A stretch of DNA of 64,000 nucleotides from Candidatus Raymondbacteria bacterium RIFOXYA2_FULL_49_16 (GTDB taxonomy: Bacteria; Fibrobacterota; OXYB2-FULL-49-7; XYB2-FULL-49-35): assembly GCA_001789205.1 (NCBI GenBank), contig MFYT01000109.1, forward strand, positions 19,803 through 83,802, read 5' to 3'. A model generated the notes under the pieces. It made no database searches and was not told the DNA's origin. It was given only the letters and a program-made list of their open reading frames with translations. Each line of letters starts with the position of its first letter. The first letter of the stretch is position 1. Of the stretch, positions 60,471 to 63,801 are shown piece by piece. The translations under genes were made by a program, and so were the position numbers.

Positions 60471-61781
60471 TCAATTGCCTTCTGCAAGAAATTCTTCAAG
60501 AGTTATCCCTTTCACGTCTTTCGCATCAAAATGCCCGTTATGTATCACCAAAAGCCTTTTCCCCGGAAAAGCATGCGTAAACCACGCGAATTCAACAGGG
60601 CTGGATTGCCCATATTTTACCTCGATGAACATTGTGGAATCATTGACAAAATCAACTTCATGTTCCTTGCTCTGCCAGAAAGGGAGCATCTCGGGCATGT
60701 CTTTGCCCGTAATCGCGGCCCGCCGCCACAGTTCCTGCGCCACAACCCATTCATACCACTGCCCTAGAACCTGGCTGGGCATTGCCTTGAATTCACCGGG
60801 CGTCCGGGGTGAGAGCGGGTGAAATACCGATGCCGCAAGAACATTTATAAAATGATACTTTTCCGGCTTGCGCGGTACTGCCACGCCGGTCCCGGGATCC
60901 CAGAAAAACCCCCTTCCCACGCATAGAAGTTCGGTCAGAATACGGATATATTCCGCGGCCACTGTATTGTTTGCAAGTCCCGCTTCTTTCGTTAGTTTAT
61001 ACTGGCCAAATGGCGTGCCTCCCCTTTGGGCAATGCATTCAAGCACATGAATCAGGCTTACCCTGCTTCTCCCGTCCGCCGCAAACTCGCCGAATATCCA
61101 ATCGCGTATCATCTCAATTATAAAGGCCGGCAACGAACCGGTTTTTGCGATCTCCGCACAGGCCACAGGGCATCCGCCAGCCAGACAATAGGCGGAGAGC
61201 GTATCCTCTTTCAATATACTGCCGCATACCCGGCTGAATTCAAAATACGAAATCGGCGTGAAAATAAAATTAGTGCGAGCGAGCCTGCCCTTTCTTCCAG
61301 GAAGGCGTTCTGTTCCCCGCATCAGGTCCGTGGCCCTGGAACCGGTTGTTACGACAAGAACATTGTCCAGTTCACCCGCATCAAGGGTCCTTTTCAGTGC
61401 TTTCTGCCAATTTTTAACCGCAGTTATCTCATCAATGAAGAGACGGCGGACACCCGTTTCCGCTGGAAAAAGCGCGGACGTCTCCTGTATGGCTTGGGTC
61501 AATGCATTTTCATCAGAAATAAAATCGCCGTTCAAATAGAAAGCGCTTCCTGGCCCGAACGAACGGATAGTCTGCTTTATGGCCCCTTCCATCCATGTGC
61601 TTTTGCCATACTGCCGCGCTCCGCGCACCAGCATGACGCCTGGTTCTTCAGGAAGTTCTTTTAACCCGAAATCAAGGTCGAAAACATAGGGAACATTCTT
61701 TAGACGGTCAAGATGTGGAAAGACCCCTCTCTCGTCTATGCGGCCCGTAGACAGTACTTGGTTTATTGTGTTAACGTTCAT
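60471..61781 (-). CDS. AAA-type ATPase with DUF4143-like C-terminus
   Basis: A 436-aa ATPase of the group annotated as ATP-binding protein DUF4143. Walker A is RGARQYGKST, Walker B RRLFIDEI, and TTGSRATDLMRG follows as sensor. A winged-helix-like segment (FGQYKLTKEAGLANNTVAAE) and a C-terminal nuclease-like fold with EVDFVNDSTMFIEVKYG (PD-(D/E)xK pattern) follow. Typical variable genes that move between genomes. No ribosome-binding site. Its promoter and start codon carry a double AACGTT operator, suggesting tight self-repression. Confidence 0.8.
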   Translation of the reverse strand: MNVNTINQVLSTGRIDERGVFPHLDRLKNVPYVFDLDFGLKELPEEPGVMLVRGARQYGKSTWMEGAIKQTIRSFGPGSAFYLNGDFISDENALTQAIQETSALFPAETGVRRLFIDEITAVKNWQKALKRTLDAGELDNVLVVTTGSRATDLMRGTERLPGRKGRLARTNFIFTPISYFEFSRVCGSILKEDTLSAYCLAGGCPVACAEIAKTGSLPAFIIEMIRDWIFGEFAADGRSRVSLIHVLECIAQRGGTPFGQYKLTKEAGLANNTVAAEYIRILTELLCVGRGFFWDPGTGVAVPRKPEKYHFINVLAASVFHPLSPRTPGEFKAMPSQVLGQWYEWVVAQELWRRAAITGKDMPEMLPFWQSKEHEVDFVNDSTMFIEVKYGQSSPVEFAWFTHAFPGKRLLVIHNGHFDAKDVKGITLEEFLAEGN

Positions 61782-61811
61782 AACGTTAGTAAATATAACG
61801 TTTAGAACGTT
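61773..61811 (-). promoter_or_regulatory. Double operator AACGTT-N3-AACGTT over promoter and start codon
   Basis: Four AACGTT hexamers start at 61773, 61782, 61797 and 61806 (spacings 9, 15, 9). They form two identical 15-bp elements, AACGTT-cat-AACGTT and AACGTT-tag-AACGTT, 24 bp apart. The first contains the ATG of the ATPase gene, the second lies between its -35 and -10. Each element is palindromic. Confidence 0.75.
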
Positions 61812-61821
61812 ATATTGGCAA
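61792..61821 (-). promoter_or_regulatory. Promoter of the DUF4143-type ATPase gene
   Basis: Minus strand TTGCCA (61821-61816), 18-bp spacer, TATATT (61797-61792). Predicted start about 4 nt before the ATG at 61781; no ribosome-binding site. Confidence 0.6.
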
Positions 61822-61907: not shown

Positions 61908-62657
61908 TTATTGAAAAGTGATGGCAATAGCTCGTACCTGCTTCAAGGCTGTATCAAAATCAGACAGGTCTGAATAAATGGCTGGCGGGTCCTGGATTTT
62001 GCCACCATGTCCGACAGAATGAAGGGAACAGACAAGCCCTGGTTGTATTTCCGGGACTTTTACTGAGTACACAATTGACGGCTGGCCGACCCAGTCGTTG
62101 TTTTCCTTATTATAGACGGCATTGAGATCACCCGATTTGTTGATTTCAGCAAAAAAGGCATATGGTTTTACCGCTTGTCGCAAACGCGTCTGAACCGTGA
62201 AACTTGATTGGGGCGTTGCAGAGGTCACAGCGTCAGTATAGGGTTTTTCCTTTGATGGAAGCTCCTTGCCCGCTGCTTTTACACGTGAGGCCCACACAGG
62301 AAAGCATTCTGAGAAAAAGAGCGCGCCCTTTTTGTTTTTTCCCGCGTGCCGCATCTTTTTAAAGTCCGCGCCTGTGATATATACGGTCTCCATGAGCTGG
62401 CCCAGACTGTCCTCGGTCCAGATGACGATTTGGGGCAAGACATTGAAAATTACTGGCCCGAGTCTCATACGTGCGCTAAACGCAGTGTCCTTGATGATAG
62501 TGACCTGTATGGGCATGCCATTGGATTTCTGCTCAAGCACGATGGTTTTGTGCGTGTGGTCCATTTTGTTCATTACGCAGCTAAAACCCATCAAAAGCGC
62601 AACGAACAATAACAAAACACCGTGGTTTCTACTCAATATCCACACCCCATTTCTCAT
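61908..62657 (-). CDS. Lipoprotein, unknown function
   Basis: A protein of about 249 aa. From ATG 62657 the leader is MRNGVWILSRNHGVLLLFVA and ends at LMGFSC, a plausible lipobox. The rest is beta-rich. YTDAVTSATPQSSFTVQTRL resembles the DAVTGATP-type motif of DUF2271-like periplasmic proteins, but I cannot assign a family with confidence. A GTG start at 62723 is possible. It overlaps the Bro-N gene end by 29 nt. Confidence 0.6.
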   Translation of the reverse strand: MRNGVWILSRNHGVLLLFVALLMGFSCVMNKMDHTHKTIVLEQKSNGMPIQVTIIKDTAFSARMRLGPVIFNVLPQIVIWTEDSLGQLMETVYITGADFKKMRHAGKNKKGALFFSECFPVWASRVKAAGKELPSKEKPYTDAVTSATPQSSFTVQTRLRQAVKPYAFFAEINKSGDLNAVYNKENNDWVGQPSIVYSVKVPEIQPGLVCSLHSVGHGGKIQDPPAIYSDLSDFDTALKQVRAIAITFQ

Positions 62658-62937
62658 TGATAGGAGAAACAATATCACCGTGTATCTCCGCGCGACCCTT
62701 TCTAAGACCAAATTCGGTAGCACGCATCTTCAACTGGTGACAATTTGTCACCGCTTGGCTACCCTCTTTTCTTAACCGCTCTTTCAACTTATTCCAGTAC
62801 TTCCGGGATGCCTGGAAATCGGATTGCTGCAGGAGTACCTGCACGATATCCACAACTGAGAAATACCACTTTCCGGCCTTTTCATTATAAAGCCTGCGGA
62901 TACTGAAGTTCTCAAATAAAGTGATTTCTGTACTCAT
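62629..62937 (-). CDS. Bro-N (phage antirepressor-like) protein, probably truncated
   Basis: About 102 aa starting at ATG 62937 (GGAAAG upstream; an ATG at 62949 is also in frame). The N-terminal FENFSIRRLYNEKAGKWYFS, VVDIVQVLLQQSDFQASRKY and WNKLKERLRKEG segments are the Bro-N domain of phage antirepressors. After QLKM the family motif stops and a short unrelated tail ends at 62629, so it is probably truncated or frame-shifted. It sits next to a recombinase. Confidence 0.7.
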   Translation of the reverse strand: MSTEITLFENFSIRRLYNEKAGKWYFSVVDIVQVLLQQSDFQASRKYWNKLKERLRKEGSQAVTNCHQLKMRATEFGLRKGRAEIHGDIVSPINEKWGVDIE

Positions 62938-63000
62938 TGTTCTTTCCATGAAAAATTACCTTTCCCCAGCGACCTTGTCAATGCTTCCTAGCATCCTGGT

Positions 63001-63801
63001 TTATTCCGTTATTCTATCCAGCGGACTCACAACCCCTGCCAGATCTCTTGCACAAACCTGAGTGTATACCATGGTGGTCTTAGGACTGGCATGCCCCAAA
63101 AGCGCCTGAATCCGTCTCAAATCTGCACCCTGCTCGAAAAGGTGCGTGGCAAATGAATGCCGCAAGGAATGAACACCGGCCTTTTTGAGTATGCCAGCCT
63201 TTTGCATTGCCCGGACAAGCACAGCCTGGACCGACCTGGTGGTCAAATGCGTTTCAAAACCAGAACCCGGGAACAACCAGGCAATGGGCCGGTATGTTTC
63301 AGTATATTGCCTGAGCAGATCCAGGGCCGCACTGGACAACACTGTGTATCTGTCCTTTTTGCCCTTTGACTGCCGTACATGAACAAGCCCTCGTTCAGGG
63401 TCAATATCCGCGGGTTTCAAGCGCACAGCCTCTCCCACCCGCAAGCCTGAGGAATAGATAAGCGTGAGAATTGTCCGGTGTTTGAGATTGGGTACCGACC
63501 TGAACAATTCCAGTATCTCCTTTGTGCTGAACACAACAGGCAGTTTTCGGCCGCGTTTTGAACGGGGAAGTTCGTATTGCAGGGGCCTGTGAAGAATGTG
63601 ACGGAACAGGAATTCAATGGCGTTTGCGGCAAGATTTATGGATCCTGCGGAATATTCGCGCTCCTCTGCGCAATGCAGGAGGAATGCCCGGACGTTTGTC
63701 TCCGTGAGTTTTTCAGGGCAGGTCTCCGCATGTGCTGCGCAAAGCTTATTATAATAAAGGTAATTCCTTATGGTGCTTTTGCTGAACTGACGGATCTGCA
63801 T
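63001..63801 (-). CDS. Tyrosine recombinase, C-terminal in-frame part of an interrupted integrase
   Basis: A 266-aa tyrosine recombinase with a SAM-like N-terminal domain (QIRQFSKSTIRNYLYYNKL) and a complete catalytic domain: first Arg in YSSGLRVGEAVRL, Lys in QSKGKKDRYTVL, HxxR in GVHSLRHSFATHLFEQG, and His and Tyr in LLGHASPKTTMVYT. The frame continues upstream in register: 19 codons, then an amber TAG (63861-63859), then more integrase-like sequence to the window edge. ATG 63801 could still restart translation. Confidence 0.82.
   Translation of the reverse strand: MQIRQFSKSTIRNYLYYNKLCAAHAETCPEKLTETNVRAFLLHCAEEREYSAGSINLAANAIEFLFRHILHRPLQYELPRSKRGRKLPVVFSTKEILELFRSVPNLKHRTILTLIYSSGLRVGEAVRLKPADIDPERGLVHVRQSKGKKDRYTVLSSAALDLLRQYTETYRPIAWLFPGSGFETHLTTRSVQAVLVRAMQKAGILKKAGVHSLRHSFATHLFEQGADLRRIQALLGHASPKTTMVYTQVCARDLAGVVSPLDRITE

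Follow-up and report, generated by a model that had tools for sequence, protein, structure and literature searches.

In ParA/SopA partition systems the ATPase represses its own operon, with a DNA-binding helix that acts on repeated promoter sites. Toxin–antitoxin operons, which have a scattered distribution, are controlled by an autoregulating antitoxin through palindromic operators over the promoter and start codon. An autorepressor with tandem operators is a known principle. Among predicted defence systems one of the commonest is PDC-S01, an ATPase fused to a PD-(D/E)XK member (PMC12988326), and for most candidates of this kind experiments are pending (PMC12988326, PMC13356809); the passages on PDC-S01 consulted here mention no operator. 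The open-licence literature searched contained no account of how the AAA_14–DUF4143 family is regulated, no report of autorepression in it, and nothing on AACGTT operators or on an autorepressing leaderless AAA ATPase. Here, we describe a member of this family in a 64,000-nt stretch of DNA (the window), at whose gene start two palindromic units probably form a private operator, with the ATPase acting as its own repressor.

Four AACGTT hexamers, beginning at 61773, 61782, 61797 and 61806, make up two exact AACGTTN3AACGTT units with a period of 24 bp (Table 1), as the first-pass annotation of this DNA had described. No other exact match occurs in the window, and the 5.43-Mb host genome contains none elsewhere and one extra site with one mismatch. 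The distal unit belongs to a 25-bp palindrome (61792–61816, AATATAACGTT-TAG-AACGTTATATT) and the proximal unit to a 17-bp palindrome (61772–61788). The predicted −35 and −10 boxes, with an 18-bp spacer, give a 10/12 match to the σ70 consensus and are the top promoter-like site in the region. The coordinates bear out the placement of one unit within the spacer, where it shares a single base with TATATT, and of the other over the ATG. The predicted transcript start falls ~3–5 nt 5′ of the ATG.

Table 1. Features of the ATPase gene and its putative operator (window coordinates)
Feature	Coordinates	Strand	Basis or remark
AAA_14–DUF4143 ATPase gene, 436 aa	60471..61781	-	ORF and Pfam
PD-(D/E)XK-like motif EVDFV...IEVK, residues 375–389	60615..60659	-	Conserved columns
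Winged-helix domain, about residues 240–302	60876..61064	-	AlphaFold2 model
Recognition helix region, residues 271–284, invariant N271–N272	60930..60971	-	Alignment and model
Walker A motif GARQYGKST, residues 54–62	61596..61622	-	Sequence
Proximal operator unit	61773..61787	.	Exact match; position kept in relatives
Start codon ATG	61779..61781	-	Central triplet of proximal unit; MNV start kept in many relatives
Predicted −10 box TATATT	61792..61797	-	Consensus match only; in 9-bp gap between units
Distal operator unit	61797..61811	.	Exact match; position kept in relatives; in −35/−10 spacer
Predicted −35 box TTGCCA	61816..61821	-	Consensus match only

The protein had been called a DUF4143-type ATPase, and both Pfam domains are indeed matched above their curated cut-offs: AAA_14 with an E value of 4e-20 and 72.6 bits (cut-off 27) and DUF4143 with 2e-12 and 47.5 bits (cut-off 28.1). 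At an E value of 0.01, AAA_14 is matched by all 28 subfamily members and DUF4143 by 26 of the 28. Residues G54, G59, K60 and S61 of the Walker A motif are invariant in the subfamily alignment, and the subfamily carries an extra N-terminal stretch (MNVxxIN...) relative to other AAA_14–DUF4143 ATPases. In an AlphaFold2 model built with 28 sequences (mean pLDDT 91.8, pTM 0.91), the P-loop domain is joined by a winged helix and, C-terminally, by a putative nuclease domain in which the pattern E-x-D...E-V-K is conserved. The winged-helix-like segment suspected earlier is confidently modelled as a winged helix, with pLDDT above 90, helices at residues 240–253, 260–267 and 272–284, and wing strands to residue 302; N271 and N272 stand at the start of the recognition helix. 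A sequence search found no related solved structure. A structure search matched residues 22–322, the N-terminal part with the winged helix, to the archaeal ATPases 2QEN and 2FNA (Z about 15); plant NLRs and CED-4 were also among the top matches, by fold comparison alone, and RFC and Cdc6 matched as well.

A scan of ~85,000 species genomes for two units separated by a gap of 5–30 bp yielded 66 loci, which separate into two classes. In 22 of them the element spans 38 or 39 bp overall, with the same geometry as in the window, and in 19 of these 22 the subfamily ATPase gene directly adjoins the element (some of the genes are cut by a contig end, and longer stretches were used for some loci). Two more loci retain only remnants of the ATPase: at L088 (1–150) the operator lies beside only the ~25 last codons, and at L093 (minus strand from 3707) ~35 N-terminal codons stand by the operator and are followed by decay. 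At the one remaining locus, L034 (6291–6400), only ATG-AAC-GTT is left of the gene. The ATPases found by the scan are 42–54% identical to the window protein, and their hosts belong to the Bdellovibrionales and relatives, Legionellales, other Gammaproteobacteria, Planctomycetota, Elusimicrobia, Kiritimatiellae and others. Since the same 39-bp geometry precedes the same gene in other phyla, the element is far beyond chance, and comparison of these sequences shows that operator and gene have been inherited together across phyla. In the Legionellales some operators have three or four 24-bp units (L031, 449–511 and flanks; L035, 6837–6900). The other 44 scan loci are mostly arrays with a 9-bp period, in various spacings and at unrelated places. 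Arrays of the 9-bp AACGTTNNN unit occur at many places in Prevotellaceae, Firestonebacteria and Thermoflexales MAGs (L028, L029, L033, L061, L069, L074 and others), and we saw no link between them and this ATPase.

Of the 31 members now assembled, 18 came through the motif, so only the other 13 test the association between operator and gene. These were obtained by searching whole genomes, with the motif ignored, using a profile of 16 subfamily members. The subfamily is a sharp class in this search, with E values below 1e-165 compared with 1e-57 to 1e-64 for the next family; there was one partial match, with its N terminus cut off (L142). An operator-like element was present at the gene start in every one of these 13 full members. 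Of them, nine show 1–4 mismatches over the 24 fixed positions, the best of ~4,500 shuffles having 6, and two (L098 and L138) are degenerate. The other two, L141 and L145, carry two copies of ACAATT-N3-AATTGT; the period is again 24 bp, and the ATG is once more the central triplet of the proximal unit. AACGTT is itself palindromic, so that inverted and direct repeats of it cannot be told apart, and it is the ACAATT variant that identifies the symmetry as a true dyad. Thus, inspection of relatives' gene starts, where absence of the repeat beside the same gene would have counted against the first reading, found the element kept.

The promoter register is conserved as well. For the 22 members whose ATG falls within the element or adjoins it, the highest-scoring in-register −35/−10 pair averages 8.77/12, compared with 6.66 ± 0.21 for shuffled sequences. 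The −35 box sits on or close to the border of unit 1, which fills the spacer; the −10 box lies in the 9-bp gap, and unit 2 covers the predicted start point. Most often the −10 box ends 6 nt ahead of the ATG; transcripts are therefore predicted to have no leader or almost none, and the almost leaderless mRNA proposed for the window gene would apply to its relatives too. The first-pass annotation had further proposed that this placement blocks both transcription and translation. The operator ends upstream of the ATG in 9 of the 31 members, with the form of the element kept, and what is constant is thus its overlap with the promoter rather than with the start codon. The first half of that proposal is therefore supported by the promoter overlap, and the translation block is not.

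The ATPase had been suggested as its own repressor, and the comparative data make this likely: the element travels with the gene and is nearly the sole site in each genome, no neighbour gene is conserved, and the protein has a modelled winged helix. Each of 21 element-carrying genomes contains two or three exact sites, too few for a regulon, and in the ORFs of the 31 loci no gene family besides the ATPase occurs in more than three. These observations bear on the chief alternative, that the operator serves another, host-encoded regulator and the ATPase itself does not bind. Many defence genes are under separate regulators, and the winged helix could have another role. However, such a regulator would need to persist in several phyla and yet keep to a single target, with two or three sites per genome and no common neighbour gene, and in L141 and L145 the half-site and the recognition helix of the ATPase differ together. 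We consider this alternative unlikely.

In the AACGTT members the recognition helix is almost invariant and reads ANNTVAxGY, or nearly so; the two members with ACAATT half-sites share ANNSAALDY. Both half-site types occur, with one gene each, in a single genome (G652). The switch in half-site and helix was probably a single evolutionary event. In a sister subfamily, sampled as eight proteins ~50% identical (order-wide searches for further members gave ten proteins only), the residue after the conserved N is S with AACTTTT...AAGTT and H with TGCTTGA, a grouping that spans branches of the tree. This grouping, which was devised post hoc, gives permutation values of 0.004–0.03 on inverted-repeat words, and covariation on plain k-mers is not significant (~0.06). 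When 12-residue windows of 104 family proteins were ranked by how well they predict shared operator words, with overall identity allowed for, the best one started at residue 267, in the recognition-helix region (partial rho 0.47, the highest of the scan), but neither the home-only nor the non-home subset of these proteins showed this peak. The link between recognition helix and operator is thus suggestive, and the case for autoregulation comes mainly from co-inheritance, the single-locus genomes and the lack of any other shared gene.

In the favoured reading, autorepression from a private operator, an ATPase dimer would sit on each dyad unit through its winged helices, and the dimers, side by side on the 24-bp repeat, would exclude RNA polymerase and hold expression low. 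A trigger at the ATPase domain, possibly phage infection, would take the protein off the operator and raise expression, and after release the PD-(D/E)XK-like domain would act. The evidence for the regulatory part of this scheme is far stronger than that for the defence part. Alternatively, the ATPase might bind the operator chiefly as an activator, or use it as a platform on which inactive effector is parked. The tandem arrays of up to four units (L031), beyond what simple repression needs, and the STAND-like folds that match the model are consistent with such a role, but the spacer and the predicted start, which the units cover, are where repressors classically bind, and most members keep this register. 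Activation in place of repression seems unlikely given the predicted overlap with the promoter core, and we regard this pair of possibilities as improbable. It is very improbable that the repeats serve the PD-(D/E)XK-like domain, whose motif is conserved in the C-terminal domain, as a target or cleavage site, that they mark the end of a mobile element, or that they are a chance repeat akin to the many AACGTTNNN arrays among the scan matches; those arrays have other spacings, and the 39-bp loci stand apart from them and go with the gene.

Mobile-element ends were rejected specifically, as the genome holds no second copy of the site and hence none flanks the 3′ end of the gene. Restriction-site avoidance was also rejected, with 7 AACGTT seen in the window outside the element and 8.2 expected from pentamer counts, as was the regulon of a global regulator, with no further sites in the genomes. 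Carriage by phages or plasmids was set aside too: tblastn with the window protein found no relative in 50,697 phage records (E 1e-5) or 72,556 plasmid records (E 1e-20), and a search of viral contigs found no subfamily relative. A tyrosine recombinase gene (Phage_integrase, 2.7e-36; 63001–63801, minus strand) lies ~1.2 kb upstream of the ATPase gene. Beside it is a short ORF without a Pfam match (62629–62949, minus strand), which we take to be reminiscent of a Bro-N domain. The ATPase gene may stand on the margin of a mobile or defence region.

The host genome contains 27 DUF4143 matches. Several of the paralogues, L182, L185, L197 and L199 among them, have their own palindromes, of different sequences, over the promoter or start codon. 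A palindrome at p ≤ 0.05 against the sequence's own shuffles was found in 28% of 71 other family upstream regions compared with 2% of 50 controls, in a sample that includes some near-identical genes and sets of unequal G+C (0.30 and 0.42), corrected only by the per-sequence shuffles. Whether every member of the AAA_14–DUF4143 (PDC-S01) family is a self-repressed effector encoded by a single gene, with a private operator that its own winged helix reads and with recognition helix and operator changing together, so that many paralogues coexist without cross-talk, is in our view evenly balanced. If it held family-wide, it would explain how dozens of such ATPases are kept silent in one genome, and it would provide numerous naturally matched operators and recognition helices from which winged-helix specificity could be learned. 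For the present protein, the private operator lends itself to direct study, giving a binding site, a reporter and, for mutagenesis, a predicted recognition helix.

Comparison with the known systems places the locus as follows. With its domain order, Walker A motif, DUF4143 domain and PD-(D/E)XK-like motif, the window ATPase is a member of the AAA_14–DUF4143 family (PF13173 and PF13635), from which at large its subfamily is distinguished by the N-terminal stretch and the AACGTT operator. It also matches the PADLOC profile of PDC-S01, a single-gene phage-defence candidate, through several models (best E 3e-20, residues 48–418, judged on E alone), and its defence role is accordingly a predicted one. 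Residues 22–322 match PABY2304 (2QEN), Sso1545 (2FNA) and proteins of the NLR/CED-4 type in fold, at 14–17% identity, which makes a STAND-type NTPase fold a candidate; such a likeness of fold shows no common function. Toxin–antitoxin operons are similar in the operators over promoter and start codon and in the scattered distribution; however, no conserved second gene was found here, no non-ATPase family occurring in more than three of the 31 loci, and a single gene encodes the effector and the DNA-binding domain in one protein. By analogy, the locus resembles ParA/SopA in having an ATPase with a putative DNA-binding helix and repeated sites over its own promoter. It is not a member of that group, as Pfam significance was reached by AAA_14 and DUF4143 only, with no ParA-type domain found, and the protein is an AAA_14 ATPase without a partner gene.
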